From NCBI GenBank assembly GCA_017472635.1, contig JAFUPU010000076.1, forward strand, positions 1-35,238: DNA of 35,238 nucleotides, written 5' to 3'. This document shows positions 2,349 through 27,987 of this stretch, piece by piece; position 1 is the stretch's first letter, and each line of letters opens with the position of its first letter. Position numbers and translations under genes: made by a program. Source of the DNA: Bacteroidaceae bacterium (GTDB lineage Bacteria; Bacteroidota; Bacteroidia; Bacteroidales; Bacteroidaceae). Below the pieces are notes generated by a model. The model was not told the DNA's origin. It saw only the letters and a list, made by a program, of their open reading frames with translations, and did not search any database.

Positions 2349-3101
2349 TTATCCGACAATATTGACTTTGCATACCGAGATGTTGTCTTTAGCCCCCATG
2401 AGACAAGCGGCTTTGATTAACTGTTCGGCTCCCCAATCGGCTGTGAGAAAACGGGTGAGGTGGGAGGAGGGGACTGAATCGGTCAGTCCGTCGGAGCAAA
2501 GAAGCAGTTGGTCGCCAACGGTAAGCGAAGGGGTGATGGGTTCGAAATCAATGAACACAGGGCTGCCAGAAGGGCTTCCTATACAATTGACAATGACGTT
2601 GCCCGGGGCTGAAGGACGGCCTGTGAGCCAAGAGAGGGAATGGTCGGAAGAGAGTTGTTGCAGTTCTTCTCCGCTGAGGCGGTAAAGTCGGCTGTCACCA
2701 CAATTGAACCAATAGCTGTTCCCCTCGTAGAAGAGGATGCCCACAAGCGTGGTTCCCATGCCGTAATAATCGGTATTTTCAAATCCCATGGTGCCTAAGT
2801 GTACATGCATTTGCAATACCCATTGATTGAGAGATAGCGATAAATCAGTAGCAGTGAGACCATTAGGGAGCAACCGGATGAACTTTGAGAGAGACTGCAG
2901 CGTCTCGTGGCTGGCGATGTCACCTGCATTATGTCCGCCCATGCCGTCGGCTAAGGCTATGACGTGGTGATCGCTGTCGGTGACCGCATATTGGGAAGTA
3001 TACCGGTTGTCGCGTAGCAAGTGGTCACCGATGAGTATCATGTCTTCGTTGCGCGGACGGGTGGGACCGATGTCGCTGATGGCATCTAATTGGAATATCA
3101 T
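2349..3101 (-). CDS. PP2C-family protein Ser/Thr phosphatase
   Basis: A complete 250-residue PPM/PP2C phosphatase, probably cytoplasmic and metal (Mn/Mg) dependent. Family motifs appear in order: SDIGPTRPRNED (residues 9-20), ADGMGGH (51-57, with the metal-binding Asp-Gly), NCGDSRLYRL (133-142), LCSDGLTD (201-208) and AKDNISV (237-243). No membrane segment or signal peptide is visible. It is the last gene of a five-gene minus-strand run and lies 13 bp after the FHA gene. The natural inference is that it reverses phosphorylation by the kinase encoded at 7107-10121. Relatives include Stp/PrpC and the PppA phosphatases of type VI secretion loci, but no such locus is present here. Confidence 0.93.
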   Translation of the reverse strand: MIFQLDAISDIGPTRPRNEDMILIGDHLLRDNRYTSQYAVTDSDHHVIALADGMGGHNAGDIASHETLQSLSKFIRLLPNGLTATDLSLSLNQWVLQMHVHLGTMGFENTDYYGMGTTLVGILFYEGNSYWFNCGDSRLYRLSGEELQQLSSDHSLSWLTGRPSAPGNVIVNCIGSPSGSPVFIDFEPITPSLTVGDQLLLCSDGLTDSVPSSHLTRFLTADWGAEQLIKAACLMGAKDNISVCKVNIVG

Positions 3102-3114
3102 GTTGATGTGGTGT

Positions 3115-3687
3115 TTAATTGAGGGTGACAGATACGTTCAGTAAAATGTTGGCTAATTGCAATTTGCCTCCATCTGTAAGAGGACAGGGGATGCCAGGTG
3201 ACAAAGGCTCTCCGTCAAACTTGCTGCCGTTGGATGACCCCAAATCAGTAACTGTCCATCGATTGTGGACGGCATCGTAGTTTAGGCGTGCATGAGTGCC
3301 TGAAACATACGGGAACCCGGAAAACTGGCGTTGGTAAATGCCTTGTCTGCGACCGATGGTGGCACCATCGACACCTTCTATGGTCAGTCCTAACATGCTG
3401 TTTGACAAGATTAAGTGGGATTTGCACCCGACTTTTACGGTCGTGTCAGCCGTGGGAGGAGCAGGAGCGGTGTGGGGAGAGGGTGTGGCCGTTTCTATAG
3501 TTACTCCGGTGAAATCTCCTCCTTGGTTTTTGACCGAAGCTGCTGCCACCATCACACCTCCACAGCGTGTACAACGATTGCCTTTACCTGGTTTGCGGCA
3601 TATTTGGCAGTAGCGAATCTCTCCACCGCACATGTCGCAGTAGAGTGAGTCGTCAGGGATTTCTATTTTACATCTGGGACAAATCAT
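3115..3687 (-). CDS. Zinc-ribbon and FHA-domain protein
   Basis: 190 residues. The N-terminus carries two zinc-ribbon-like modules: cysteine pairs C3/C6 with C17/C20, and C27/C30 with C39/C42. A Pro/Thr-rich linker (about 60-85) follows, then a C-terminal FHA domain (about 88-190) with the expected conserved residues: IGRR (111-114), SGTHARL (129-135) and the TDLGSSNG segment (147-154). FHA domains bind phosphothreonine peptides, so this is probably the reader for the neighbouring kinase. The first residues, MICPRCK, resemble the start of the AAA+ protein encoded just upstream (MICLHCKK), suggesting a shared metal-binding tag. Spacing to neighbours is 13 and 30 bp, consistent with an operon. 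Confidence 0.88.
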   Translation of the reverse strand: MICPRCKIEIPDDSLYCDMCGGEIRYCQICRKPGKGNRCTRCGGVMVAAASVKNQGGDFTGVTIETATPSPHTAPAPPTADTTVKVGCKSHLILSNSMLGLTIEGVDGATIGRRQGIYQRQFSGFPYVSGTHARLNYDAVHNRWTVTDLGSSNGSKFDGEPLSPGIPCPLTDGGKLQLANILLNVSVTLN

Positions 3688-3717
3688 ATATCTTAGGCAT
3701 TTTTGTGGTCTATGATT

Positions 3718-6700
3718 TTAAGGAATGTCTTCAGCCTTGATTAATCGATAATCTTCTTCGGTAAGACGTTCCGGTGGGGTGGATGCTACACGCATAGACA
3801 GTCCGCTGATGGTTTTTTCAAACAGAGTCCGCATTTCGCGTGCATTTCCGAAGTTACGTGTCTTTTCTTGGTAAAGGTCATGTACTTTTTGAGCCAGTGC
3901 CATTTCTGCGGATTCAGAAAGCGTATAACCTTTTTGTTGCGCCATCTGTTTGAAAATGAGGGTGAGCTCGTGTTCGCTGTAGTCTTCGATGGTGAGCTTG
4001 TGTGTGAAACGGCTTTCCAATCCGGGATTTGTTTGCAGGAATGCAGCCATTTCGCGCCCATATCCGGCAGCGATGACAATGAACTTTCCTTTGTCATCTT
4101 CCATTCGTTTCATCAGTGTTTCTATCGCCTCTTTTCCAAACTTGTCGCCACTTCCGCCTTCTGGCTCATATAACGTGTAGGCTTCGTCAATAAACAGTAC
4201 TCCTCCGATTGCACGGTCGCATAGGGCGTTCACCAACGAGGGTGTTTCTCCGACGTATTTCCCGACCATTTGGCCGCGGCTTGCTTCTATGACACGACTG
4301 GTGGGCAATAGTCCTACAGCCTTGAAAAATTCACCTAACTTACGTGCTATGGTTGTCTTGCCGGTTCCTGGATTTCCGGTCAGTATCATATTGAATGTTA
4401 GAGGCTCAGCCTGTCCGATGCCCATCTCGAGCCGCTGTTTCATAAATACGACCTGTACTGCAAGTCGGCGTACGGCTTCTTTAATTTGGTTCATGCCAAT
4501 GAACTCATCCAATTCTGCCATTATTCCGGCAAGTGTTTTTTCGCTGCCTTCTTTTTCGCCAAAAATGTCTCGGGATGTCAGCTCAAACATCATCTCTTTG
4601 GTGAAATCGGTTTCGCTCATAGCTTCCATCAACCGTTTGCTTTGATTGGCTACAGCCTGGTCAAACAATTTGCGCACTTCACGTGCGTTGCCAAAGTCGC
4701 GACTGCGGGTTGCATAAACTTGTTCGAAATGGTGCAATAGCTCTTGTTGGCAGTCAGGCGTAAGGGTAAAACTATTCTCTTTTACCAACTGTTTGAATAT
4801 CTCGGTGAGTTCGTCGGGGCGATAGTCTTCGAAATGGATGGTTTTGGCAAATCTTGATTTCAGACCAGGGTTGGAGTTGATGAAAGTATGCATCTCGGCA
4901 GTGTATCCGGCAACGATACATACAAAGCGTCCGCGATCGTCTTCCAGACGTTTCAGTAAGGTGTCAATGGCTTCATTGCCGAAAGAATCATTTTCTCCTG
5001 CTTGTAGTGTGTAAGCTTCATCGATAAATAAGACACCTCCTAAGGCAGAATCGATTAGCTGGTTTGTCTTTATGGCTGTACCCCCTACGTGTCCTGCCAC
5101 CAGGCTGCTACGGTCTGCTTCGACCAATTGTCCGCGGGTGATGATGCCCAGTGCTTTTAGAATGTTTGCCATGATGCGGGCAACGGTGGTCTTTCCGGTG
5201 CCGGGATTGCCTGTAAATACATAGTGCGAAGCTGTCGGGGCATGCCCTGTATCCCGCTTGGCATGCAGGTTTATGAGTGATACCAGGTCTGTTATTTCTT
5301 CTTTGACTTCCTTCAGTCCGATGAGTGATGAGAGTGGAGCCAATATCTCATGAAGGTCAACACTTGCCGGACGTTCGTAGGGGATATCTTCTGCTTGGAT
5401 TGTCAGTAATGCTTCGTCTGTTTGTTCATCGGGCGACAACTGAGAGATACGCTCTGCTTGTCGAGAACAGATTTTTTGCGCTAATAGCCGCATTTCCCGT
5501 GCATTGGCAAAGTTTTTATCTCGCTCTGCATGAAGCTTTTCTACCAATTCTTTGGCAATAGCTTCGGCTTCGGGGGTGAACTTGTAGTGTTTCTTCTCGA
5601 TAAATGAAATCAATATCCTTGTCAGTTCTTCAGCACTATAATCTTCTATATTGATGAATCGGGTGAAACGGCTGCGCATGCCTGGATTGATGTGGAGCAG
5701 ATGTTCCATCTCAGTCTGATAACCGGCAGCAATTACCACAAAGCGTCCGCGGTCGTCTTCCATGCGTTTCATCAATTTCTCGAGAGCTTGTGCGCCCTGT
5801 TCATCTCTTGAGCCGTGCTCGTTCTGTGGGGCAAGGGTGTATGCTTCATCAATAAAAAGGATGCCTCCTATCGCTTTATCGCAAAGTTTGTCAACCACCT
5901 TAGGGGTTTCTCCTGCATATTGGCTGACCATTTGGCTGCGGTCTACCTCAATTACGTGTCCGCTGTCGAGATATCCGATTGCTTCAAGAATTTCGCCCAG
6001 TTTACGTGCTACAGAGGTCTTTCCAGTACCTGGATTCCCTGTGAGAACAATGTGTAGTGGCTGTCTCTCCTGCTCGCCAAGTCCCCGACTGGCGCGGTCG
6101 TTTTCGGCTTTTACTTCCCACGCAATTTCTCGCATGGTTTGTTTGACCTTGTCCATACCGATGAACTCGTCTAATTCACTCAATATTTCATCAATTCCAC
6201 GTATGGGAGGCACGTACCCTCGGATGTCTTCCTCTGAGATTTCTCCAAGAACCTTGGTGTCTCTTGACAAATATGATGTGAACATGTCTTCAGCCTTACC
6301 TCGCGCAAAGTGTCCGTAGGCAAAAGAGTCATCATGCTTCTTCAGTTCATACTTGAATTGTCGGAGTAATTTGTCAGCGGCTTGCGGTGTCAAGGTCTCT
6401 ATCCCATATCGTTCTTTCAACGTACGGATACATATTTCATATAATTCTTCAGCAGTAAAGCCTGTGAGCCTGAAGTGGTATTTGAATCGGCTTTTGACTA
6501 CAGGATTTTGTTCGAGGAATCCTTCAAATCCGCCGGGGAGTCCTGCTAATATGACGATGGGGTCGCCTTCCCAACGATCCATTTCTATGAACAATTTGTC
6601 AAGCGGATTAACATTGTTAGCGTAGTTGTCTGGAAGCAGTTTCTGTACGTTGTCGAAAAATAAGATGCCTCCACGCGCCTCTTTTATGTTTGAGTCCCAG

Positions 6701-7044
6701 TGCTCGACAAATCGGTTATAGTCTACAGCATCAACAATTTTAAGCTTGGATTTTTTCAATACTCCATGTTGTGCCAGATATTCCGATAAAATTTGAGGAA
6801 TAGTAGTCTTTCCTGTTCCTGTTTCACCGATGATGATAGTGTTCAAGTTCAGTCGTACGCTTGTATGCTTGCCATTATCTGTCAGATGGGTGAGGGTTGA
6901 TACGATACTTTGGAATCGTTTCTTGACTTCGTCAGTACCGACGAGTTTGTCCAGCGGGTTCTTTAAATCGACGAGCGCTTTTCCGCACCATCTGCAATAG
7001 CGCGCAACGGGACGATTTTCTTTTTTACAGTGCAGGCAAATCAT
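3718..7044 (-). CDS. Four-module CbbX/SpoVK-like AAA+ ATPase with N-terminal zinc ribbon
   Basis: 1108 residues. An N-terminal zinc ribbon (C3, C6, C17, C20) is followed by four tandem AAA+ modules. Walker A motifs are GETGTGKT (73-80), GNPGTGKT (336-343), GNPGTGKT (612-619) and GNPGTGKT (890-897). Walker B motifs are GGILFFDN (125-132), GGILFIDE (393-400), GGVLFIDE (669-676) and GGVLFIDE (947-954). Modules 2-4 are typical of the CbbX/SpoVK group (IDEAYTL, NPGxxSRF, FxNAREMR). Module 1 is divergent: Asn132 replaces the catalytic Glu, so it may bind but not hydrolyse ATP. Usual family members have one module, though multi-module forms exist. Probable role: remodelling of partner proteins within the kinase/phosphatase/FHA cassette. 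The partner is unknown. Confidence 0.92.
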   Translation of the reverse strand: MICLHCKKENRPVARYCRWCGKALVDLKNPLDKLVGTDEVKKRFQSIVSTLTHLTDNGKHTSVRLNLNTIIIGETGTGKTTIPQILSEYLAQHGVLKKSKLKIVDAVDYNRFVEHWDSNIKEARGGILFFDNVQKLLPDNYANNVNPLDKLFIEMDRWEGDPIVILAGLPGGFEGFLEQNPVVKSRFKYHFRLTGFTAEELYEICIRTLKERYGIETLTPQAADKLLRQFKYELKKHDDSFAYGHFARGKAEDMFTSYLSRDTKVLGEISEEDIRGYVPPIRGIDEILSELDEFIGMDKVKQTMREIAWEVKAENDRASRGLGEQERQPLHIVLTGNPGTGKTSVARKLGEILEAIGYLDSGHVIEVDRSQMVSQYAGETPKVVDKLCDKAIGGILFIDEAYTLAPQNEHGSRDEQGAQALEKLMKRMEDDRGRFVVIAAGYQTEMEHLLHINPGMRSRFTRFINIEDYSAEELTRILISFIEKKHYKFTPEAEAIAKELVEKLHAERDKNFANAREMRLLAQKICSRQAERISQLSPDEQTDEALLTIQAEDIPYERPASVDLHEILAPLSSLIGLKEVKEEITDLVSLINLHAKRDTGHAPTASHYVFTGNPGTGKTTVARIMANILKALGIITRGQLVEADRSSLVAGHVGGTAIKTNQLIDSALGGVLFIDEAYTLQAGENDSFGNEAIDTLLKRLEDDRGRFVCIVAGYTAEMHTFINSNPGLKSRFAKTIHFEDYRPDELTEIFKQLVKENSFTLTPDCQQELLHHFEQVYATRSRDFGNAREVRKLFDQAVANQSKRLMEAMSETDFTKEMMFELTSRDIFGEKEGSEKTLAGIMAELDEFIGMNQIKEAVRRLAVQVVFMKQRLEMGIGQAEPLTFNMILTGNPGTGKTTIARKLGEFFKAVGLLPTSRVIEASRGQMVGKYVGETPSLVNALCDRAIGGVLFIDEAYTLYEPEGGSGDKFGKEAIETLMKRMEDDKGKFIVIAAGYGREMAAFLQTNPGLESRFTHKLTIEDYSEHELTLIFKQMAQQKGYTLSESAEMALAQKVHDLYQEKTRNFGNAREMRTLFEKTISGLSMRVASTPPERLTEEDYRLIKAEDIP

Positions 7045-7106
7045 AACTGGGCATTTTTGTTCTTTCTTACTTCGTTTTCTCAGTAGTTATAGCAAGACTG
7101 CTTAAC

Positions 7107-10100
7107 TTAAATCAAATCAGATGCTTTGAACGATTTTATCATCTCACCGAGTTTGGCTTTCCAGGCTACTATATCGGGGACATCAATGTTCAGCAAGTCT
7201 GCATGGAACACGATGAAGAGTGTAGCTAATGTGAGCATAAACAAAATCCATTCGATATAGTGCGCATAGAATTCGACCTTAGAGGCAGTAATCACTCCCA
7301 CGGCTTCGTCGATGGCTTTGAAGTTTGAACCTTTGAATTGGAATGATTTCTGTTTGTATGTATAGTATAGAGGGTCAAGCAGTGTTTGGTTTACATTTTC
7401 GTTGAACAATGGTTGCAAGTCGCGGAACTTGTATATCGATTTTCGTTTGCCTCCCCAGATTGCTATAGCTGCGTAGGAGAGTAGCATTATCAGTGAAACG
7501 ATGGTCATGATTGTTGGATGTCCTCCTCCGATTAGCTTGATAATCCATGCAGGGAGAAGGGCTGAAATTCCACCGGCTATTCCCCAAAATAGGTTAAAAA
7601 ACAGTCCGTTTCCGTGGAAATAGCTCCATGTGGTAGCTATGATTGCAGTCATTCCTCCTAAGGGGAGTCCGATAGTAAATCTGCTGTGCTCGGCTACATA
7701 TTCGGGATTTGAATATCCGAATATTCCGATTGTCAACAGGGTTAAAATTACGCTGGCAAGAAATCCTTTCATCAATTGATCCTCGCGTTGTAGGATGTGT
7801 GCGCTGATGTTGCGCGAAGACTCCATTTTTTTTCGGGTTTCGGTCAATGCATGTTTGAAGCGTCGGTAGTGTATGTCGTCAGGATTTGCTTTCCCTACTT
7901 CGGTAAGGAATTCGCCGAGGCGTTTTTCGTAGCTGTATTTTTCTGAGAACGTGTCGTGTGGATTTTCGTGGAAGAATATACTGAGCCATTGTTTGAGGCT
8001 TCCATTGCTCATTTCGCTTCTGATGGCTTTTGAATCTTCCAAGTTGAATTCCTCGTATGAGGTAATCAGTCGTCCCGTCTGTCGGATGTAATATTCGGGG
8101 GTGCTTCCCAATTGTTCGCACAGTCGGTATGCGGCAGTGCGTATGTCATATTCTCCGAATCGTGAAGTATTCTCTTCCGAGGTGAGGTCCATGGTCCGTT
8201 TGTTCAACTCAACCACGTCGCGCCATCCTTTCATTTTGGCATAGTGATGCAGGCGGCTCTCCTCTCCGATGTATTCTTTCATCTGTTTTTTAAACTCTTC
8301 ATCGCTGCAGTATTGACATTCTGTCATTCTCCGGCTGATGAAAGCTGCCACTTGGTGACGGGCTACTTGTCCTGCCAAGTCAAATCCTCGGCTTTTATCG
8401 AGGTGATACAAGACTCTGTAGGCTTGTGCCCGTGTGAAAGACCTCTTTTCGTCGCAGATTTCTTTTATCTCCACATACAACATCGGGTCGCATTTGTAGT
8501 ATATCCACGAGAGCAACCTTCCGTCGAGTAGCGCATTCCATTCATCGGGACGACATTTCCGGTCCCGGAATGCATCCACAATTTCTTCGATTGTAGCAGA
8601 GGGCTTGTCTGCCAGAAATGGGATGGTTGGATCCAGTTCGTAGATTACGCGCCAAAGTGCAACCTCTGGCGTGTCTTTTTGGAAATGTTTCCGCAACCTG
8701 TTCACTTCCAGCTCGGTTGTTATCTCCAGGTAAATGTATAGCGGGTGGTTTACGTCGGTGAGCATCACTTTATACTCCTCGGCATTTGCCAGTAAGGTCA
8801 TTACCACCTCGTGTACCCCACTTGCGGTGTTTCCTCTTGCATCGCGATAAGGCATTTTTTTGTCCAGCGTGTATAAGGCCGCTTGGATTCCGGCTTCCGG
8901 ATTCAACGGGTATCGGGTTTCCACTATGTCGTCAAGTTCGATTGCCATTTTGCGGTTCCCGCATTCTTCGAGCCACGATGAGATGAGTTTGCTGTACAGG
9001 TATTTGATGCCCAGGTGCTTTCGCGTGACTAACAGAATTGCCAGTTCACTCGCATTAGATGCCACGACATTCTTTTCTGAGTCGACGATGAATGTTTTGT
9101 ATTTCAGATAGATGGATGCTTCGTCCACTTCTACTTGTTCGCCTTTGAACCACCGTTCAACCTCTTCGTATCCCCATCGTTTTTCGGGGTTTACCACGGT
9201 AAGTCCTCTGATGAGTCGGCTTATCTTTTCCGGCAGTTTGTCCAATCCCGGCAGCCTTCCTTCGCTTTTCATTCTCATCATCGACCGCTCGTTTCCAGAA
9301 AACGGGTTGCCGCCTATCCATAGCGAGAACAGGGTGATTCCCAATGAGTAGAAGTCGGCTTTTGGTGTCAGTTCCACTTCTCCGTCGATTACATCTTCAT
9401 ACATTTCAGGAGCGGCATAGAGGGGGGTGCGTGCCTGGGTTGTCTTGTGCTTCTCTTCGTTCTCTCCCATGATGGTGGATATACCGAAGTCAGTCAGCAC
9501 CAATTCTGTCTGTTCTTTGTCTCTGAAGAGGTAGTTGCCCAATTTTACGTCTTTATGTATCATTCCGCATTGGTGTAGATACTCCAATGCAGCGGCGGCT
9601 GTAAGTGTTATTTGCGCAAACGCCTGTTCGTTTCCCTTGATTTGGTGTTCAGCCAATGAAATGCCTTCCAGCAGCTCCATCAGTTCATAGTCGCGTGCGA
9701 CACCGTCAACGATGGTCTGTCCGTAGTCGTACAGGTGTACGATGTAGGGGAAATTCATGTTCCACACCCGTTGTAGCACCCCCTCTTCCGGGTAGAAGTT
9801 TGGGTAATAGAGTTTCAATACCGCTCGTTTTCCCTCTCCTTCAACCATCATTACCTGTGCCTCTCCTGATGAGATGGAGAGCGTTTTTATCTCACGGTAT
9901 ATTCTGCCCCCCAATATGAAAATGGCTTCTGTCGTTCCCCCTGCCGGCATAGAAACCCCTTCTCCAGCATCCATAAACCTGTTGGTTGTCTCTTCATTGT
10001 CGCAAGAGATAAAGGCATGCTGGGTCGCATCGTCCGAGTTCCGTCGGGTCCTGTTTTCTACCGACGGGATTGTTGCGGGCTCTTCTTTTTTGATTATTTG

Positions 10101-10121
10101 CAGGGTGTTTGATTCTTCCAT
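7107..10121 (-). CDS. Membrane-anchored Ser/Thr protein kinase
   Basis: 1004 residues. A eukaryotic-like kinase domain spans about 68-328: Lys103 in AVLKLYY, catalytic loop HKDVKLGN (189-196), DFG (211-213), APE (237-239) and DFYSLGITLFSLW (256-268). The usual HRD is HKD, so it is a non-RD kinase, and the glycine loop is weak (SGEAQV). Residues 330-780 form a long, mostly helical, Cys-containing region I do not recognise. The C-terminal part has about five hydrophobic segments (near 785-802, 816-833, 840-864, 869-889 and 955-973), anchoring it to the inner membrane with the kinase domain in the cytoplasm. It lies 62 bp from the AAA+ gene. Likely substrates are proteins read by the FHA protein, reversed by the PP2C. 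Activity is inferred from motifs only. Confidence 0.9.
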   Translation of the reverse strand: MEESNTLQIIKKEEPATIPSVENRTRRNSDDATQHAFISCDNEETTNRFMDAGEGVSMPAGGTTEAIFILGGRIYREIKTLSISSGEAQVMMVEGEGKRAVLKLYYPNFYPEEGVLQRVWNMNFPYIVHLYDYGQTIVDGVARDYELMELLEGISLAEHQIKGNEQAFAQITLTAAAALEYLHQCGMIHKDVKLGNYLFRDKEQTELVLTDFGISTIMGENEEKHKTTQARTPLYAAPEMYEDVIDGEVELTPKADFYSLGITLFSLWIGGNPFSGNERSMMRMKSEGRLPGLDKLPEKISRLIRGLTVVNPEKRWGYEEVERWFKGEQVEVDEASIYLKYKTFIVDSEKNVVASNASELAILLVTRKHLGIKYLYSKLISSWLEECGNRKMAIELDDIVETRYPLNPEAGIQAALYTLDKKMPYRDARGNTASGVHEVVMTLLANAEEYKVMLTDVNHPLYIYLEITTELEVNRLRKHFQKDTPEVALWRVIYELDPTIPFLADKPSATIEEIVDAFRDRKCRPDEWNALLDGRLLSWIYYKCDPMLYVEIKEICDEKRSFTRAQAYRVLYHLDKSRGFDLAGQVARHQVAAFISRRMTECQYCSDEEFKKQMKEYIGEESRLHHYAKMKGWRDVVELNKRTMDLTSEENTSRFGEYDIRTAAYRLCEQLGSTPEYYIRQTGRLITSYEEFNLEDSKAIRSEMSNGSLKQWLSIFFHENPHDTFSEKYSYEKRLGEFLTEVGKANPDDIHYRRFKHALTETRKKMESSRNISAHILQREDQLMKGFLASVILTLLTIGIFGYSNPEYVAEHSRFTIGLPLGGMTAIIATTWSYFHGNGLFFNLFWGIAGGISALLPAWIIKLIGGGHPTIMTIVSLIMLLSYAAIAIWGGKRKSIYKFRDLQPLFNENVNQTLLDPLYYTYKQKSFQFKGSNFKAIDEAVGVITASKVEFYAHYIEWILFMLTLATLFIVFHADLLNIDVPDIVAWKAKLGEMIKSFKASDLI

Positions 10122-10167
10122 GGGTTTGTTGGGTGAATGGTTTGTTGGTTGAGGCGTTTATTGGCTC

Positions 10168-11064
10168 TTATAGTTTTTTGTTTCGGGTAAGGGGTGTATC
10201 ATCCTCGATTTGGGTTGTGTCGTCAAGCACTATCCACCTGCCGCCCAGGTGTGGACATGCACATCCGCACGGGCTGCTGTGTATTGCCTGTTTGTAGTTG
10301 CATTTCCATCCCAATATTGTTGAAGCAGGCTTGCGTGCCATTATATAGTTGCGGGTCAATATCGGATTCTCTTGTGGGGTGGCAGTTGTCAGTTTGTCCA
10401 ATAAGGCTTGCAGCTCTTCTTCTTTTTCCTTTATCTGTTTTTGTAGTTCTTCAGCTGTTTTTTGCGAAGCGGTTGGCTGGTACTCTTTTCCTAACAGTTT
10501 CTGCACCCGTTTTGCCAACTCTTCAGCCTGTTTGGCACGTTCGGTAGCTTTGGGCGATTCGATGGGACGGAGCTTTTTCAGTTTGTCCAGTTCTGCACTG
10601 ATTTGGTCCATCTGTTTGAATGCCGGTTCGTTTTGGATTTCTGTTCGTTGTTTGACCACCTTCTCAGTCAATGGCATTCCGCATGCAGGGCAATAACTGA
10701 ACGGACTATGGGTCTTGCATGCCGGGCAGATGATGCCTTGGCGCGAGTTCCCGCATTCAGGACAGAATGAATCTGTTGGTGCCATCGATGCTCCGCAAAA
10801 CGAACATCTGTTGGTGGCGATGTAGGTCTGGCAATGTTCACAGAAGTCTGCTTCTTTGGGTACCGGCAGTCGGCAGTTCGGACACACCAATGTTGTCCCC
10901 AACATCCCTCCGCACTCTTCGCAAAACAAAGCATCGGGTTCGTTGATGGCTCCACAGTGCGGGCATACATGCTCGTTGTGATTTGAAGCATAGCTTTCGT
11001 TCACCTCGTTTTGCTTGTATAACTCCTGTGTCTTTTCTCTCTGTAGTTCTTTCTGCCTCTCCAT
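10168..11064 (-). CDS. Protein with four zinc ribbons and a coiled coil
   Basis: 298 residues. Eight CxxC knuckles occur at regular intervals (34-37, 48-51, 61-64, 75-78, 87-90, 101-104, 113-116, 125-128), which is enough for four zinc ribbons. A charged heptad-like helix follows (about 150-225, rich in Glu/Lys/Leu). The C-terminus (about 250-285) has another Cys-rich patch, PCGCACPHLGGRW, which I do not recognise and which could be a separate metal site. No catalytic motif, membrane segment or signal peptide is seen. It sits 46 bp upstream of the kinase on the same strand, so it may be an adaptor or scaffold, or a redox/metal sensor for the cassette. The function is not known. Confidence 0.82.
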   Translation of the reverse strand: MERQKELQREKTQELYKQNEVNESYASNHNEHVCPHCGAINEPDALFCEECGGMLGTTLVCPNCRLPVPKEADFCEHCQTYIATNRCSFCGASMAPTDSFCPECGNSRQGIICPACKTHSPFSYCPACGMPLTEKVVKQRTEIQNEPAFKQMDQISAELDKLKKLRPIESPKATERAKQAEELAKRVQKLLGKEYQPTASQKTAEELQKQIKEKEEELQALLDKLTTATPQENPILTRNYIMARKPASTILGWKCNYKQAIHSSPCGCACPHLGGRWIVLDDTTQIEDDTPLTRNKKL

Positions 11065-18122: not shown

Positions 18123-21100
18123 ATGAAAAAAGGTTTACTATTTTTGTTTGTGCTGCTCAGTGCAATAGGACTGAGGGCGCAAAATGCAACGGGCGATACG
18201 CTGACGGTTGTGCCTGACACGACCACTGTCGAGTTGGGGAAGACTTACTATTTTGCTGCCAGGAGTAAGCAATACCCTGTCAGGTTTGTAGCTACGGCTG
18301 ATGGCTACCTCACTTTTGGTGCTACTGCTAAGATTTCTGCATCAAGCACCAGAAGAAACAATCAGTCGATATCGGCTACTTCTGCGACTGGCGCTATCAG
18401 CTACACAGATGCTGCCGGAGTGAAACACTCTGTCCCCTATATGGGTAGTTACACGAAAGACAGTAAGACCGGTCAACTGACCGGCATAGCGTTGGCAAAG
18501 GGTGATGTGTTTGAGTGCAAGGTCTCTACCTCTGTGGCGCCTACAGCTGAAGCTCCGGTGACTTTGGAGTTGGCTTTCACCGAAGGAAAGCAACCGTTGA
18601 CGTTGCTTGGTACCTCACCCGCAGATGGCAGTGAGTGGTCAGGTGCTGTGAAGTACAAGAGCTATAGCCCGTCGTCAGGTGCTGTTTACTGCTCATTTTC
18701 GTCGTTGGTTGATATCGAAAGTGTGAAAGCAACCGTAAAAGTCGGAGGTAAAGAGTATACCGACGTAAAGGTGGCAGTCGAAAGTTCCAGCAGTTATCTC
18801 TATGTAGAGGGATTGGCTGAAACCATGAAGGCAGCTGCCGCTGAAGGACTGGTGAGTGCCGGTGATGAGTTTACGGTGACCCTCTCGGGCTTGAAAGACC
18901 GTGTCTTCTCTGATGTGACGTTGGCTGACCAGACTTTCACTTTCAAAATGGCGGCTACCGCTTGTTCGGATGTTGCACCTAAAGCTTCAACAAGCTTGGA
19001 TTTGGAAGATATCCAAACCGTTACCTATTCGTTTGACGGTAAAGTGAACATCGACAATGCCAAGTTCTACATGCTCAACCTGGCAGACAGTTCAAAGACC
19101 GACTTGACAGCAACGGTTGATGGTACCAGTGTGGTAATCAATGTAGCTCCGGCTTTGGGTAACATCCCTCCCCGTCTCTTCGACATCATTGCTGAAGGTG
19201 TGGTTGATGCCAAGGGCAATGCCATCTCTTACAGCACCGCCACCAAGACGTTGGAGACCGGCAAGCTGAAAGCACACTACGGTATGTCAAACGGTCTGTT
19301 TGCACCTACCCTTTCACCGGCGAATGGTGCAGAGGTGTTTGTGTTGAACAAGTTCACGTTGACCTTCCCCGGTGAAGTGGTTTACAATCCTGCCGGTTCG
19401 ACTAAAGGTATCACGTTGACCTATATGGATGCCAATTGGGATGACGTTGAGGTAGCTAAGGGTAGTGTGGAGGTAAGTGCTACCAACCCGAATGTAGTAA
19501 CCATCACGCTGGATTCGATGATTGGCACTCCCAACGAGTATACGCTGGGTATCCCTGCCAAACTCTTCTGGCGCAAAGATGCCGGCTACAAAGCCGATGA
19601 TTTGACTTCATCAAGCAAATATGGTTACAATTATTATTCAACTTCAGGGCTGAGCTTCACCGTTATCCCCTCTGATTCGTTGCTGGATGCCCCCGACACC
19701 ACCGCGCTGGCTGAAGGTGTAAACTACATCTATGGCAAGAAGAGAGCATATGACTCGTCAATCCCCGGATATGCCGGTGAGTATTGGGTTAAGTATACCG
19801 CTGAAACCGATGGATATCTTGCCCTGAATGCTTCGCAGAAGGTGACAATGAAGAACATGGCAGTGAATGGTAGCTCGTTGCAGACTACCACCACGACGAT
19901 TTCGTATAAAGATGCCGAGGGTACAACCCACTCTATCCCCTACTATGGTGCATACAGCCAAGATACTAAGACCGGAAGTGTGGCAGGCATTGCCATGGCT
20001 AAGGGCGATGTGTTTACCTGCAAGACCTACACCTCGTTGGCACCCTCGGTTAGCAATATCATTTCGATTGAGCCCGAGTTTACGACTGGTGTCAACCCGC
20101 TGACCTTGGCAGGCGTTTCTCCTGCAAGCGGCAGTGAGTGGTCAGGTGCCATGAAGTACAAGGGGTCTGGTGTGTCAGGTGGCATTTACTGCTCATTCTC
20201 TTCACTGATTGACCGCGAAAGCGTGAAAGTGTCGGTTAAGGCAGGCGGAAAAGTATTTGAAAACGTACATGTGGCTGTTGAAAGCTACTATACTTACCTC
20301 TGCGTTGATGGCTTGGCAGACACATTGAAGGCGGCAGCTGCTGCCGGTCTGATTGGTGCCGGTGACGAGTTTACCGTGACAATCTCGGGCTTGAGAGACC
20401 GTGTCTTCCCCGCTGTTACCTTGGAAGACCAGACTTTCACTTACAAGATGGGTCCGACTGCTTGTACAGGGGTTACACCTGCGGCTGCTACAGCCTTGTC
20501 ACTTGAACAAATTCAAACTGTTACCTATTCGTTCGACGGTAAGGTGAACATCGACAAAGCCAAGTTCTACATGTTCAACCTGGCAGACAGTTCAAAGGTA
20601 GATTTGACTGCAACAGTCGAAGGTACAGATTTGAAAATCAACGTAGCCTCGGCTTTGGGTAATATTCCTCCCCGTCTCTTCGACATCATTGCCGAGGGTG
20701 TGGTTGATGCCCAGGGCAAAACCATCTCTTACAGCACCGACACCAAGACGTTGGAGACCGGCAAGCTGAAAGCACACTACGGTATGTCAAACGGCCTGTT
20801 CAAGCCAGTGGCTGACCCTGCTGACGGTTCAGAGGTTACAGCCTTGAACAAGTTCACATTGACTTTCCCGGGTGAAGTTATTTACAATCCTGCCGGAGCA
20901 ACCAAAGGCATTGCGTTGACCTATATGGATGCCAATTGGGATGACGTTGAGGTGGCTAAGGGTAGTGTGGAGGTAAGTGCAACCAATCCGAATGTGGTAA
21001 CCATCACGCTGGATTCGTTGGTAGGTACTCCCCAAGAGTATACGCTGGAAATCCCTGCCAAACTCTTCTGGTACAAAGATGCCGGTTACAATGCTGACGA

Positions 21101-23051
21101 CCTGTCAACCAAGGGCTCTGCCAAATATGGTTATAGCAATACTACCTATAATTGGAAGTACAGCATCCCGACGATAGCCCCCGACTCAATCGCTCCGGTT
21201 GAGGCTGACACCCTGTACCAACTCGACACGCTGGTACTCTACTTCCCCGAAGAGGTGGAATACAGTGCCGGAGCAAAGGTGGCTGTTGTAACTGAAACCG
21301 GTGATACCATCACCAAGGGAAGTTTCTCTTATCCTGCAACAGGAGACAAGAAGCAGCTGGTTGTAACAACTGACGAAGTGGTAGATTCACTGGGCGCCTA
21401 CAAGGTCGTTGTGCCTGCCGGATCTATCAGCAAGTCAATGGCTGCTGACAACAAGAACCTGACATTGGTTTACTCTTACATTGTGAAACCTCTTGAACTT
21501 GACTTCCTGACCTTGAGCGTCGAAAACGGACAGACTTTGGAGACACTCTCTACTATAGAGTTTACGTTGAACAAGGAGGTAGGATTCTTGGAAGCTAACA
21601 TGCTGATTGGCGATGACGGTATAAACGCTCATGGTGCAACCTTGGCCAAGTCGGATGCTGGTGTTTACAAGCTTGACTTTACTTATGGCGGAATGTTTGG
21701 TGCAGCCAAACTGCTGAAGGGCGTCACTTACACCATGAAACTGGAAGCCTGGAGCTCGGAAGAGGCCAAGAACTACGAAACAGAGACACCGGAGACCCTC
21801 GTCCTGACTTATGTGGGTAACAGCGAACCTGAAAAGGTGAGCGAGGTGACACTGGTGAGCGCAACTCCCGAGGGCGAAAGCGTAATCCAGACCAATGAAA
21901 ATGTATTCACTTACACATTCTCGGCTCCGGTGAAGGTGACCAATGCACAACGCAATATGGGACAAGGCGTCACTCAGGAGATTGAATACAAGGTAGAGGA
22001 GAACAAGGTGACTGTGACCATGGGTGCGGCTGCCATGTTGCCGGGAAGCTACATCGCCATCAGTCTGACACTGGAGGATATGGAAGGCAACCGTCTGGCA
22101 GGGACCGACAACCTGGGTTACTACCTCTTCAACTACACTGTTTACAAGGCTAAAGAGTATGACTACTCACTGTCACCCGTAAGCATCGACCCCGCTGAAG
22201 GACAGGTTGACGCATTGCAAGGCATTACCTTCACCTTCGACACTGAGGTGGTATTGAAGGATGAGGCCGTTGCCTATATCATCAACGACGTTACGGCTGA
22301 TACCGTGAAGACCATGACACTCTCAGGCAATCAAGACGACTGGAAGCAGGTAAGTGCATTCACCATGCTGCCGTTGACTGTTGCCGGATACTACACCGTA
22401 GTGATTCCGCAGGGTGTTATCATGACTGCTGACTATTACGAGACTGAAACGGCGGTAACCGGTAAGTTGAATGGAGAGTTGAAGTATAAGTATACAGTGG
22501 GTACTCCGGTTGAACCCAACTCATTGGTTCCTGCAACGGTAACTCCGGACACCGCCAGCACAGAACTGACCTCGTTGAGCACGCTGACACTCACATTCGA
22601 CAAGTGGGTGGCTGTTCACGAAGGAGATGCAGCCGTGCAACAAGTATGGGTGTTGGATGCAGCCCAACCTGAAAACTCAGAGCCGGTGACTTATGGAACT
22701 TGTGCATTGAACGACGACTTCATGAGCGTAACCATCACCTTGGGCAAGGAACTGGGTAAGGGTACTTATAAGGTTGTTGTAGGTGAAGGTGTAATCTACT
22801 CTAACGATGGTTACAATCCTTCACTCCCCGACTTGGGCGTTTCAAACGGTGCTGTCTACAATCCGTCACTCAGCTACACCTACGTAGTGAAAGAGGTGAC
22901 CGGAATTGACGCTATCCTGAGCATCGGAGGTGAAGTGGAAGTATACGATGTGAACGGTGTTCTCATCCGCAAGGCACAAGCAGCTGAGGCGTTGGAGGGA
23001 CTTTCACGTGGCATCTACATCATCAACGGTCAAAAGATTGCAATCAAGTAA
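18123..23051 (+). CDS. Large secreted Ig-like repeat protein with Por-type C-terminal tail
   Basis: 1642 residues. The Sec signal peptide MKKGLLFLFVLLSAIGLRAQ is probably cleaved after the Ala-Gln region near residue 20. The body contains two long homologous halves (about residues 25-525 and 530-1030), each starting with a beta-rich module (KTYYFAARSKQ versus VNYIYGKKRAY) and including Ig-like modules with Big_5-like character (SPANGAEVFVLNKFTLTFPG). Four to five further Ig-like modules follow to about 1595. The last 45 residues (EVEVYDVNGVLIRK to GIYIINGQKIAIK) resemble the Por/T9SS type A C-terminal domain. No catalytic motif recognised. Likely a surface or secreted adhesin-like or scaffold protein. 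A promoter precedes it and a strong terminator follows, so it is monocistronic. Confidence 0.85.
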   Translation: MKKGLLFLFVLLSAIGLRAQNATGDTLTVVPDTTTVELGKTYYFAARSKQYPVRFVATADGYLTFGATAKISASSTRRNNQSISATSATGAISYTDAAGVKHSVPYMGSYTKDSKTGQLTGIALAKGDVFECKVSTSVAPTAEAPVTLELAFTEGKQPLTLLGTSPADGSEWSGAVKYKSYSPSSGAVYCSFSSLVDIESVKATVKVGGKEYTDVKVAVESSSSYLYVEGLAETMKAAAAEGLVSAGDEFTVTLSGLKDRVFSDVTLADQTFTFKMAATACSDVAPKASTSLDLEDIQTVTYSFDGKVNIDNAKFYMLNLADSSKTDLTATVDGTSVVINVAPALGNIPPRLFDIIAEGVVDAKGNAISYSTATKTLETGKLKAHYGMSNGLFAPTLSPANGAEVFVLNKFTLTFPGEVVYNPAGSTKGITLTYMDANWDDVEVAKGSVEVSATNPNVVTITLDSMIGTPNEYTLGIPAKLFWRKDAGYKADDLTSSSKYGYNYYSTSGLSFTVIPSDSLLDAPDTTALAEGVNYIYGKKRAYDSSIPGYAGEYWVKYTAETDGYLALNASQKVTMKNMAVNGSSLQTTTTTISYKDAEGTTHSIPYYGAYSQDTKTGSVAGIAMAKGDVFTCKTYTSLAPSVSNIISIEPEFTTGVNPLTLAGVSPASGSEWSGAMKYKGSGVSGGIYCSFSSLIDRESVKVSVKAGGKVFENVHVAVESYYTYLCVDGLADTLKAAAAAGLIGAGDEFTVTISGLRDRVFPAVTLEDQTFTYKMGPTACTGVTPAAATALSLEQIQTVTYSFDGKVNIDKAKFYMFNLADSSKVDLTATVEGTDLKINVASALGNIPPRLFDIIAEGVVDAQGKTISYSTDTKTLETGKLKAHYGMSNGLFKPVADPADGSEVTALNKFTLTFPGEVIYNPAGATKGIALTYMDANWDDVEVAKGSVEVSATNPNVVTITLDSLVGTPQEYTLEIPAKLFWYKDAGYNADDLSTKGSAKYGYSNTTYNWKYSIPTIAPDSIAPVEADTLYQLDTLVLYFPEEVEYSAGAKVAVVTETGDTITKGSFSYPATGDKKQLVVTTDEVVDSLGAYKVVVPAGSISKSMAADNKNLTLVYSYIVKPLELDFLTLSVENGQTLETLSTIEFTLNKEVGFLEANMLIGDDGINAHGATLAKSDAGVYKLDFTYGGMFGAAKLLKGVTYTMKLEAWSSEEAKNYETETPETLVLTYVGNSEPEKVSEVTLVSATPEGESVIQTNENVFTYTFSAPVKVTNAQRNMGQGVTQEIEYKVEENKVTVTMGAAAMLPGSYIAISLTLEDMEGNRLAGTDNLGYYLFNYTVYKAKEYDYSLSPVSIDPAEGQVDALQGITFTFDTEVVLKDEAVAYIINDVTADTVKTMTLSGNQDDWKQVSAFTMLPLTVAGYYTVVIPQGVIMTADYYETETAVTGKLNGELKYKYTVGTPVEPNSLVPATVTPDTASTELTSLSTLTLTFDKWVAVHEGDAAVQQVWVLDAAQPENSEPVTYGTCALNDDFMSVTITLGKELGKGTYKVVVGEGVIYSNDGYNPSLPDLGVSNGAVYNPSLSYTYVVKEVTGIDAILSIGGEVEVYDVNGVLIRKAQAAEALEGLSRGIYIINGQKIAIK
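18601..19620 (+). repeat. Internal coding duplication, copy 1
   Basis: Matches 20101-21120 in the same gene. For most of the length the offset is exactly 1500 bp (500 codons), with a one-codon shift near the left end. Some blocks are nearly identical at nucleotide level, for example 19215-19295 against 20715-20795 and 19423-19500 against 20923-21000, while the sections between them have diverged. Confidence 0.8.
20101..21120 (+). repeat. Internal coding duplication, copy 2
   Basis: Second copy of the segment at 18601-19620. The shared protein blocks include FDGKVNID, ARLFDIIAEGVVDA-like (PPRLFDIIAEGVVDA), KTLETGKLKAHYGMSNGLF and LTYMDANWDDVEVAKGSVEV. Confidence 0.8.
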
Positions 23052-23238: not shown

Positions 23239-24780
23239 ATGAAGAAAATAGTAATCTCTCTCTTTCTGTTGCTTTTGTGTGGAAGCAACTATGCAGGAAA
23301 TAACATCCCCTGGAAGAATGGTCCCCTCGGTGTGAGTGAAAACAGTCGCTATCTGGTACACCGGAATGGTACCCCCTTCTTCTGGTTAGGTGATACAGGT
23401 TGGCTCATGCCCGAACGGCTGAACCGCGATGAGGTAGGATACTATCTGAACCGCTGTGGGAAGGCGGGATATAACGTAGTGCAGGTGCAGACCGTCAACG
23501 GGGTACCGGCTTACAACATATATGGAGAATCATCGCACCCCTTTGGCTATGATTTCACCCATATTGACCGACCGGGCGTATATGGATATTGGGATCACAT
23601 GGACTATATCGTAGAGACTGCCGAACGGAATGGTATATATATAGGTATGGTATGCATTTGGGGCGGTCTGGTGAAGAGCGGACAGATGACAGAGGAAGAG
23701 GCGGTGCAGTATGGCACGTTCCTTGCCAACCGGTATAAAGACAACCCCAACATCATCTGGATAATAGGCGGTGACATACAAGGTACCGTGAAGACCGAGG
23801 TGTGGGAGACGTTGGCGCGTACCATCCGTGCCATTGACCCCGGACATCTGATGACCTTCCATCCGCGCGGACGTACCTGCTCGTCTCAGTTCTTCCCCGA
23901 TGCCGAGTGGATTGACTTCCACATGTTCCAAAGCGGACACCGCCGCTATGGACAACGCATGGGAAACAAAAACTATCCCATCCCCGACAATACGGAGGAA
24001 GACAGTTGGCGCTATGTTGAACAATCGTTGGCAATCGTACCTTTGAAGCCGGTGCTTGACGGGGAACCATCGTATGAAAACATCCCGCAGGGGTTGCATC
24101 ACAATACCGAACCCCGGTGGAATGCGGCAGATGTGCGCCGGTATGCCTATTGGTCGGTGTTTGCAGGAGCTTGTGGACATACCTATGGATGCAACGACAT
24201 CATGCAGTTCTACAGACCCGGATACGGACCTGCCTATTTTGCCGATACCCCTTGGTGGGACGCACTTGACTTTCCGGGATTCAACCAGATGAGACACCTG
24301 AAAGAACTGATGCTGACTTTCCCTTACGAAGAGCGAGTGCCTGACCAGACGATAATAGCAGCCGGAGACGAACAGCAAGCAATCAGCGACAAACTGCCGG
24401 TGGAACGGGTAGCTCAGGACCAACTCCCACCGGAGGGAACGATTGTACCTGCTGACTCGGCGTGGGTAATCAAGAAATACAATCGGCTGGTGGCAACCCG
24501 TGGTGCCGATTACCTGCTGGTATACAACTACACCGGACGTGCTATGGAAGTAGACCTTACCCGCATCTCGGGAAAAGAGAAGCAGGCGTGGTGGTACAGC
24601 CCCATCACAGGCGAGTACAGCTACATAGGCAAGTTTGACAACCGTGTAACCCGCTTTACGCCTGTTGAAGAGGGGATAGGAAAAGACATTGTGCTGGTGG
24701 TGACAGATGCTGAAGCTGGCTATTTGGGCACTAAACAGGCCGTGAACGTACAAGCAGAAAAGAAAAGTTACGAAGAATAG
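23239..24780 (+). CDS. GH140-like glycoside hydrolase (DUF4038; probable apiosidase)
   Basis: 513 residues with a Sec signal peptide (MKKIVISLFLLLLCGSNYAG). The catalytic (beta/alpha)8 part begins NGPLGVSENSRYLVHRNGTP and FFWLGDTGW, typical of DUF4038/GH140. Candidate catalytic acid/base Asp179 lies in IIGGDIQG, and the candidate nucleophile Glu276 in VLDGEPSYEN. The C-terminal about 90 residues (YLLVYNYTGRAMEVDLTRISG) form the small beta domain usually attached (collagen-binding-like domain). Characterised GH140 enzymes release apiose-linked side chains from rhamnogalacturonan-II. It precedes the PL10-GH43 gene by 39 bp in the same direction. Specificity is inferred from the family. Confidence 0.88.
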   Translation: MKKIVISLFLLLLCGSNYAGNNIPWKNGPLGVSENSRYLVHRNGTPFFWLGDTGWLMPERLNRDEVGYYLNRCGKAGYNVVQVQTVNGVPAYNIYGESSHPFGYDFTHIDRPGVYGYWDHMDYIVETAERNGIYIGMVCIWGGLVKSGQMTEEEAVQYGTFLANRYKDNPNIIWIIGGDIQGTVKTEVWETLARTIRAIDPGHLMTFHPRGRTCSSQFFPDAEWIDFHMFQSGHRRYGQRMGNKNYPIPDNTEEDSWRYVEQSLAIVPLKPVLDGEPSYENIPQGLHHNTEPRWNAADVRRYAYWSVFAGACGHTYGCNDIMQFYRPGYGPAYFADTPWWDALDFPGFNQMRHLKELMLTFPYEERVPDQTIIAAGDEQQAISDKLPVERVAQDQLPPEGTIVPADSAWVIKKYNRLVATRGADYLLVYNYTGRAMEVDLTRISGKEKQAWWYSPITGEYSYIGKFDNRVTRFTPVEEGIGKDIVLVVTDAEAGYLGTKQAVNVQAEKKSYEE

Positions 24781-24819
24781 GACTGAAAACTTAAAGAAAA
24801 AACATAATAACCATTTCTC

Positions 24820-27800: not shown

Positions 27801-27987
27801 TGGTACCGGACATCATTCTATCCTGCAAAAGCCTGGTACCGATGAGTGGTACATTGTCTATCACCGATTTGCCCGCCCTGAGAGCATCAAACTCGGCTGG
27901 TCTGCCGGCTACAATCGTGAGGTCTGCATCGATAAACTGGAATTCAACGAGGACGGTACAATCAAACCGATTGTTCTTTCGTTGTAG
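24820..27987 (+). CDS. Trimodular secreted PL10 pectate lyase-GH43-GH43 protein
   Basis: 1055 residues; signal peptide about 1-26 (ending PATAQ). Module 1 (about 42-385) is a PL10 pectate lyase: FPSGGWAKN, YDNGGWPQYYP, ITYNDDAMGNV, and QARAYEFPSF with Arg256 as candidate catalytic base. Module 2 (about 390-705) is a GH43-like five-blade propeller; candidate residues are Asp446 (RDAF), Asp594 (IDADINF) and Glu647 (CEGAS). Module 3 (about 730-1055) is a clearer GH43: HADPEV (Asp740), VIDPDVF (Asp878/Asp880) and NEGTYVF (Glu932). Together they would cut homogalacturonan and trim arabinose or related side chains. Codon use shifts inside module 2 (about 26260-26720, strongly C-ending), suggesting a mosaic origin. 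Same operon as the GH140-like gene. Confidence 0.9.
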   Translation: MNRRTIYSCLLAVGMMWGAGLQPATAQNISNKKKVKTPVAETSFRNIARGMPDAWYKTREARTVADSVLAYQFPSGGWAKNQSWHQKPDGKKWAERASIRKQMTSADGVGATIDNMSTTIELLFLAKMYKATGKRLYREAFMRGFEYLLEAQYDNGGWPQYYPLKKPRRNGPDYSVHITYNDDAMGNVIKLMRDLAEGDKAPYDALKLSEEDIKRAQRAYDKAIDCIVKTQIRKNGRPTVWCQQHHFETLEPVQARAYEFPSFTAEGETADLVELLMGVKNPSPAVMNAVECAVEWLRNHAIKGYRHETYTDAEGKRDRRLVPDENAPLLWARNYDLDTEKPYFGDRDGKKHDNYADISRERRMGYSWIGTDVQGVLDKYPKWYTKHHPGNYQTGDYGYLYCHMSGRGEWTAYALSRDGLHFHDLINGDPIMDVKQHARIEGGQRDAFITRRHDGKGYLMVTTDMRVSSRKELGKVADWDNFGIDLLTSDDLIHWKSVTFDYRKGASIFCDPQSPDVYKDWSTINRVWAPQIIWDRNYKWPDGKKGGYMIYYSMWNRAEEKYDRMYYSYADESFTRLTKPQLLFDWGYATIDADINFLPSDGLFHMMIKKEGGTPGIFTTASKKLTGPWPEPVADDYVDFEGKKKCEGASAFQLVGDSTWRVAYIEYSSKPRNYRICKADKYMRNFTSPQNIEGVNGPQHGSFMRLTKEEYERLQAWSESLEGKHIAPNVKNPVFSGLHADPEVLYSEQTGKYYIYPTTDGTEGWKSHDFKVFSSPDLKSWTDEGVMLDLHSDVDWTDWYAWAPCIIECKYVKGKLARTPKELKKKGKKVSYKYFYYFTAGKNIGVAVADKPEGPFKDALGKPLLNQPPAGIKAQVIDPDVFMDPQTGKYYLYWGNSFLACSELNDDMVSIKEGSTRVLINRPEKRKYNYNEGTYVFYRNGKYYFMWSENDTRSAYYRVRYLISDSPTEFVRDGKPAKVERTIVLQQDPSKQIYGTGHHSILQKPGTDEWYIVYHRFARPESIKLGWSAGYNREVCIDKLEFNEDGTIKPIVLSL

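Follow-up and report, generated by a model that had tools for sequence, protein, structure and literature searches.

Phosphothreonine switches that combine a kinase, an FHA-domain reader and a PP2C phosphatase are known mostly from type VI secretion systems (T6SS) and from Actinobacteria. In the actinobacterial circuits of the GarA/OdhI, FhaA and PknB type, an FHA protein with a threonine site of its own meets a kinase; these are different proteins from those described here, and we know of no AAA or zinc-ribbon partner for them. Triads of the TerY-P type are another system for comparison. In the cited passages on the Agrobacterium T6SS, TssL phosphorylated in a PpkA-dependent manner is bound by Fha (PMC3953482); actinobacterial GAP1-N2 neighbourhoods are described as joining a kinase, a PP2C and a vWA gene (PMC7159879); and KKP is presented as a prophage-encoded set of two Ser/Thr kinases and one phosphatase (PMC11341870). 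Here we analyze a five-gene cassette in a 35,238-nucleotide stretch of Bacteroidaceae DNA (contig JAFUPU010000076.1 of assembly GCA_017472635.1, forward strand; hereafter, the window). In our reading, to which we assign a probability of about one half, the five genes constitute a complete phosphothreonine switch of the inner membrane, independent of other systems, and the remodelling machine under its control is the tandem AAA+ protein.

The cassette occupies positions 2349..11064 and is encoded entirely on the minus strand. Its first gene encodes a zinc-ribbon protein (ZNR; 10168..11064, 298 aa, Pfam DZR at 3.5e-16), followed by a Ser/Thr kinase with C-terminal hydrophobic segments (KIN; 7107..10121, 1004 aa, Pkinase at 1.7e-28), a CbbX/SpoVK-type tandem AAA+ ATPase with an N-terminal zinc ribbon (AAA; 3718..7044, 1108 aa), a protein with a double zinc ribbon and an FHA domain (FHA; 3115..3687, 190 aa, FHA at 1.5e-9), and a phosphatase (PP2C; 2349..3101, 250 aa, PP2C_2 at 1.2e-9). 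The five open reading frames (ORFs) are intact and are separated by 46, 62, 30 and 13 bases. Pfam recognizes four AAA and three AAA_lid_6 stretches in the AAA protein, and places the DZR match of the FHA protein slightly below the cut-off (26.5 vs 27.3 bits). A preliminary description of this DNA had noted a five-gene minus-strand run with zinc ribbons in three of the five proteins; all five ORFs carry the expected Pfam domains, and ribbon cysteines were found in ZNR, FHA and AAA.

Conservation of the five-gene block

The order ZNR-KIN-AAA-FHA-PP2C, on a single strand, was found in all 27 loci read (numbered with the prefix L, and their genomes with G), the window included, as far as the contigs extend. 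All five genes are present in 21 of the 23 loci that span the block, the other two (L019 and L064) lacking PP2C; L024, L061, L065 and L066 were not counted as spanning because their contigs stop inside the block. Among the 21 complete loci, ZNR is truncated by the contig end in L018, and KIN is split over two frames in L069. Additional ORFs are located within the block in L022, L024, L058 and L061. Two genomes that were first detected in the order sample and are outside the profiles conform to the same arrangement: all five genes are in order in L125, and L126 has ZNR-KIN-AAA followed by the contig end. Independent loci repeat this order, and chance falls far short of explaining such adjacency: the five genes are one conserved unit. 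The preliminary description had proposed a single cassette of writer, reader, eraser, ATPase and zinc-ribbon protein, an assignment borne out by the conserved order; examination of co-occurrence and adjacency across Bacteroidota found the genes together, the opposite of the lack of joint conservation that had been named as the contrary outcome.

Pairwise distances correlate in all ten protein pairs, with Spearman coefficients of 0.57-0.89 that were obtained without an unlinked control gene. The alignments comprised 26 rows for KIN (L069 left out), 25 for ZNR (the partial L018 and L024 left out), 23 each for AAA and FHA, and 21 for PP2C.

The cassette is sparsely distributed. At E <= 1e-30, a search detected KIN in 11 of the 101 relatives, the count for good-quality genomes being 5 of 76. 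A profile of KIN residues 331-1004, built so as to avoid generic kinase matches, recovered at E <= 1e-10 7 of 395 genomes in the phylum sample, 19 of 251 in the family sample and 6 of 393 in the order sample; these samples overlap, and every count includes the genome of the window. An additional locus (L014) comes from a Prevotella metagenome-assembled genome. In a search with ZNR, 4 of 395 class genomes matched, namely, three known carriers and G709, in which the partners of ZNR are not visible because the gene sits at a contig end. Upstream of this ZNR relative (L118) are an SPFH/GYF_2 gene and a TerB-like gene whose Pfam score falls short of the cut-off.

Outside Bacteroidota, the search covered plasmid, phage and viral collections, together with one scan of genome contigs by exact peptide patterns, the reach of which is limited to close relatives. 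A tblastn search with residues 331-1004 of the window KIN found no match among 72,556 plasmid and 50,697 phage records, although distant relatives could escape such a search, and none of the 33 viral contig matches included a match to ZNR or AAA. The AAA protein matched 274 plasmid records at less than 60% identity, many among those listed being annotated as beta-helix proteins. One IMG/VR contig of 2187 bases (L085) combines phage-like ORFs, recognized by eye, with a KIN tail and kinase fragment in one frame, and is possibly an assembly chimera.

Threonine motifs and protein architecture

Evidence for a phosphothreonine switch comes from the N-terminal tail of KIN (residues 1-66 in the window, 9924..10121, minus strand), where relatives carry an array of threonine motifs. 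The motif T-[LIVM]-[KRH] occurs at 50 sites in 18 of the 26 tails, compared with a shuffle mean of 5.0, and at 8 sites in the linkers of 8 of the 23 FHA proteins, compared with a mean of 1.1, the observed number being reached in 0 of 2000 shuffles in both cases; these counts are not probabilities, because the motif was defined after the tails had been viewed and the rows are related. The strict form, (D/E)KT(I/V/L/M)(R/K), is present in 25 copies in 9 of the 26 tails, with repeats such as DDKTIR, DKTVRI and DKTLKPD noted on reading. The repeat units vary by lineage yet center on threonine. Around the tail threonines, lysine at -1 is enriched 3.7-fold and arginine at +2 5.2-fold; neither is among the commonest neighbors of serine, for which the exception is lysine at +2 (1.5-fold).

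The same type of site recurs in the FHA protein. The window copy contains D-T-T-V-K-V in its linker (residues 81-86, 3430..3447, minus strand; motif scan), and 12 of the 23 FHA proteins have a T-[LIVM]-[KRH] site in the linker or the C-terminus, that is, outside the FHA domain. Besides the eight with linker sites, these include four proteins with the site at the C-terminal end, EKTIRV in L058, DATVRV in L059, DKTVRI in L060 and EKTVRI in L062, which resembles the tails of their own kinases. A looser acidic motif, counted in whole proteins with overlapping starts, is likewise in excess of the shuffled number in KIN (76 vs 20.7) and FHA (11 vs 1.7).

The putative writer, reader and eraser all retain the residues characteristic of their families. 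In KIN, the kinase domain (residues 67-325, 9147..9923, minus strand; delimited by Pfam and alignment) has K103, D191, N196, D211 and E239 invariant in 26 of 26 sequences. The FHA domain contains the reader residues G-R, S-x-x-H and N-G: R113, S129 and H132 are present in 23 of 23 proteins and N153 in 22 of 23, and the ribbon cysteines of this protein are invariant in 23 rows except for one, which is kept in 19. The metal-site motifs of PP2C are retained with minor variation in 21 rows. Taken together, the motifs and the active sites suggest autophosphorylation of the KIN tails, with FHA as their reader and PP2C returning them to the initial state; the FHA reader probably binds the threonine-motif tail of its partner kinase.

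Beyond the kinase domain, KIN contains a conserved middle region (residues 331-780, 7782..9131, minus strand) that has no match among PDB sequences and, in the window copy, no significant one in Pfam; the 331-1004 profile produced no convincing PDB hit (best E 0.044). Next come four hydrophobic segments, the presumed membrane anchor, identified by a Kyte-Doolittle scan (residues 783-974, 7200..7775, minus strand). Most relatives have 4 or 5 such segments, the window 4, L024 2 and L067 3. The sequence past the last segment is about 30 residues long in the window and 112-364 in several other relatives. A Pfam scan of the C-terminal parts of the 26 KIN proteins gave none for the window and a strong match in one member only, a PG_binding_1 domain at the C-terminus of L072, after the last segment; an SH3_3 domain lies in the final part of L125, and the corresponding parts of L058, L061, L022, L070 and L126 have no Pfam match. 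In L070 and L071, a gene that appears SH3-like by eye abuts ZNR upstream, the L071 copy being without a Pfam match.

The preliminary description referred to a four-module ATPase. Four P-loops are indeed present in the AAA protein, but an intact Walker B is found in only three of the modules. Module 1 (6175..6954, minus strand) keeps the P-loop GETGTGKT, has FFDN in place of the DE of Walker B, and shows no pore-loop motif by pattern. Modules 2-4 (3721..6174, minus strand) have intact Walker A and B, an SRF arginine finger, an NAR sensor-2 and a pore-loop-like Y/H-x-G. Of the 23 AAA proteins, 16 gave a match to the P-loop of the first module, none of the 16 showing a DE Walker B there, and the pattern scan counted 2 to 4 DE Walker B modules per protein; in L015 and L018, an entire module is missing. 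This variation in module number would argue against a fixed single-chain ring. The N-terminal ribbon consists of C3, C6, C17 and C20, which are invariant in 23 rows. The whole-protein NCBIfam scores exceed the cut-offs for SpoVK (804.5 vs 422.95 bits), EccA (700.1 vs 466.65) and CbbX (666.4 vs 459.25), with four matching stretches each, and by these scores the modules belong, at the domain level, to the CbbX/SpoVK/EccA family.

ZNR has four zinc ribbons (residues 34-128, 10681..10965, minus strand; alignment), the first of which is missing in some relatives, and six C-x-x-C pairs that do not vary among the 25 aligned rows. Its C-terminal element, W-x-C-N...H..P..C..P..GG.W (residues 253-277, 10234..10308, minus strand), with W253, C255, H262, P265, C268, G274, G275 and W277 invariant in the same 25-row alignment, is a possible extra metal site. 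A ZNR profile found zinc-ribbon or weak matches only among PDB sequences.

Proposed mechanism, genomic sites and rival explanations

We propose that KIN, for which the C-terminal hydrophobic segments would serve as the membrane anchor, senses the state of the envelope, in some relatives possibly via an extra C-terminal domain. The motif enriched in both proteins points to threonines of the KIN N-tail and of the FHA linker or C-terminus as the sites that the active kinase would phosphorylate first. The FHA domain, with its reader residues intact, would then bind these phosphothreonines and cluster the FHA protein, the kinase and their partners. The zinc ribbons of FHA, AAA and ZNR may dock the AAA+ machine on the cluster, with ZNR as the adaptor; the degenerate first AAA module might regulate or anchor the machine and the other modules remodel its target. 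PP2C, as expected from its family, would reset the switch. The writer/reader/eraser core, indicated by the motif and active-site evidence, is the best-supported part of this reading; the recruitment and action of AAA, suggested by linkage and shared ribbons, are its weakest steps. Our best guess for the output is envelope control. A more elaborate version, which we offer tentatively and which may well prove wrong, holds that the phosphothreonine array of the KIN tail is a multivalent platform, possibly a condensate, on which an FHA/zinc-ribbon adaptor recruits and activates a single-chain tandem AAA+ motor, and that the cassette is a previously undescribed class that moves between genome sites as a block.

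Besides the caution on the shuffle counts, several observations weigh against a phosphothreonine switch of this kind. The T-[LIVM]-[KRH] site is absent from 8 of the 26 KIN tails (the window, L015, L020, L021, L024, L070, L071 and L072), including the very copy from which the analysis started, and from the linker and C-terminus of 11 of the 23 FHA proteins. The later loci carry differing repeats: in L125, the tail has SGTQRP repeats (TxRP 8 times vs 0.08 expected), T-[LIVM]-[KRH] occurs in it twice, and STLR is present in the linker of the FHA protein; the L126 tail has GTDVM repeats (3 vs 0.003 expected) and, by reading, no strict sites. Both the TxRP and the GTDVM patterns were picked after the tails had been read. 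The looser acidic motif is not enriched in ZNR (6 vs 4.1), AAA (21 vs 24.3) or PP2C (6 vs 3.2), so that all that ties AAA to the phospho-signal is linkage and the shared zinc ribbons. The genomes of L019 and L064 (G006 and G547, respectively) gave no PP2C match at 1e-5, and the membrane segments of KIN are called from hydropathy. The tails that lack the site would also fit an account in which the threonine arrays are a feature of disordered linkers rather than phospho-docking sites, the cassette being a plain kinase operon with AAA as a substrate; the AAA and FHA genes are adjacent in the spanning loci, except for the extra ORF in L022. Given that the flank preference is seen at threonine and not at serine, and that enrichment of the motif extends to the FHA protein and not to AAA, we consider this account improbable.

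The genomic surroundings bear on the remaining alternatives. In the window, a phosphoglucomutase/phosphomannomutase gene (PMM) lies 50 bases upstream of the cassette and an FGGY carbohydrate kinase gene (RhaB) downstream. The DHH-DUF4827-PMM run is intact in all 12 genus relatives read (15 searched), with the cassette after PMM in the window only and elsewhere in 5 of those 12; a fixed link to PMM and RhaB was rejected, neither RhaB nor a cassette gene being matched in the 11-16 kb PMM stretches of the 12 relatives. The flanking genes vary between loci; ten of them, taken from six loci, belong mostly to housekeeping or metabolism. Six loci have an ABC-F gene on the upstream side, and six have metA and a U32-type gene on the downstream side; L014, L021, L063 and L064 have both flanks, and one site therefore recurs. 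An M13-type gene at this site scores under its NCBIfam cut-off. In the KIN tree, loci group mostly by family and genus, and the order-level relative L022 falls, with modest support, within a group otherwise of the window's family. This pattern suggests to us an old block that has often been lost and has sometimes moved as a whole.

Other neighbors were recorded at individual loci. In L072 (15643-19631), the cassette is followed by a gene that is TerB-like by eye, without a Pfam match, and by a DUF4062 protein. A SUKH (SMI1/KNR4) gene lies inside the block in L058 (6789-7583) and another after it in L062 (10445-10966); a DUF1963 gene follows the block in L022 (17431-18075), and the downstream gene of L068 is assigned to the same group by clustering. 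Elsewhere in the window, there are an apiosidase-like gene and a pectic-acid-lyase/GH43 fusion (23239-27987), and a 1642-residue protein (18123-23051) with a CopC match only, at about residues 1243-1310.

The same switch could serve mainly in envelope repair or quality control, with AAA remodelling an inner-membrane complex, and this is a plausible though doubtful account. An envelope role was among the options raised in the preliminary description, and it gains some support from the membrane-like KIN segments, the PG_binding_1 and SH3_3 domains of two relatives, and the long C-terminal extensions of several others; the short extension of the window KIN and of closely related copies and the C-terminal parts without a Pfam match do not fit as well, and the sparse presence of the cassette argues against an essential envelope function. 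Sparse presence at differing genome sites would suit a defence or conflict system, in which the kinase responds to an attack or an infecting phage by bringing about shutdown of the cell and PP2C acts as the brake, as in KKP, which the kinase and phosphatase resemble in the cited passages (PMC11341870); single loci also have SUKH, DUF1963, DUF4062 or DUF4435 genes near by. This we regard as unlikely. In PADLOC, the best 25 of 34 AAA matches and the best 25 of 33 KIN matches fall in shared AAA/kinase domains, ZNR has one weak match to LmuB (17 bits), and PP2C and FHA have none; furthermore, the window KIN region is unmatched in the plasmid and phage records, within the reach of that search, the flanks are mostly housekeeping or metabolic, and two genomes have no PP2C match. 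Finally, zinc occupancy of the conserved-cysteine ribbons in ZNR, FHA and AAA might set the activity of the kinase or of AAA, and a CusA/CzcA-family efflux operon adjoins the cassette in L018, L019 and L020 (named by NCBIfam in L018 and by clustering in the other two). Conserved four-cysteine ribbons are, however, often structural; the three loci belong to one genus, that of the window, so that a shared ancestral location may explain these neighbors; and within up to 3 flanking genes per side, contig ends limiting some, a gene of the CusA cluster occurs at no other locus. Metal or redox sensing was rejected as the leading reading on this flank comparison and appears very unlikely.

Relation to described systems

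The cassette is distinct from the systems that combine similar enzymes. The T6SS protein VipB (PF05943) was matched in 0 of the 26 cassette genomes, with a control match in E. coli; TssC (PF17541) was also matched in 0 of 26, and no control matched it either. TerD (PF02342) was matched in 0 of 26, the control finding it in two genomes. Of these 26 genomes, 17 are at least 90% complete, and 9 miss the standard of 90% completeness with 5% contamination. A T6SS-associated pathway and a Ter system were rejected on these counts, in agreement with the preliminary description, which had seen partners of neither kind. A search of the open-licence literature, the scope of which ends short of subscription papers and preprints, found neither the five-gene block nor a characterised pathway for the linked families.

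The PpkA/PppA/Fha set of the T6SS is similar in that a kinase, a PP2C and an FHA protein act via phosphothreonine (PMC3953482, cited passages); the cassette differs in adding a tandem CbbX-type AAA and a zinc-ribbon protein, and its likely phosphorylation sites are carried by its own kinase and FHA protein. Compared with the TerY-P and GAP1-N2 neighbourhoods, the cassette has FHA and tandem AAA genes instead, along with the lack of a TerD match in the 26 genomes; vWA is not among the family matches listed for the five window proteins. With KKP, it shares a Ser/Thr kinase and a PP2C in one operon, and FHA domains are reported in such clusters, whereas no AAA or zinc-ribbon gene is named for KKP in the cited passages (PMC11341870). 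The KKP order, PP2C followed by two kinases, was not found among the blocks, each of which has one KIN and, where present, PP2C in the last position, the two frames of L069 being one split gene. Seven viral contigs (L088-L090, L092 and L098-L100) do show a KKP-like arrangement, PP2C preceding a pair of kinase genes.

If the proposed reading is correct, a stand-alone switch with an AAA+ motor of its own, its gene order retained across Bacteroidota, would suggest that direct control of protein remodelling by phosphothreonine reading is possible in bacteria, and the cassette would provide a defined context for ATPases of the CbbX/SpoVK/EccA type. With these ATPases, the cassette AAA shares the AAA core with the family lid, exceeding the cut-offs of all three models; it differs from them in having four modules per chain, the first without the Walker-B glutamate, and an N-terminal zinc ribbon.

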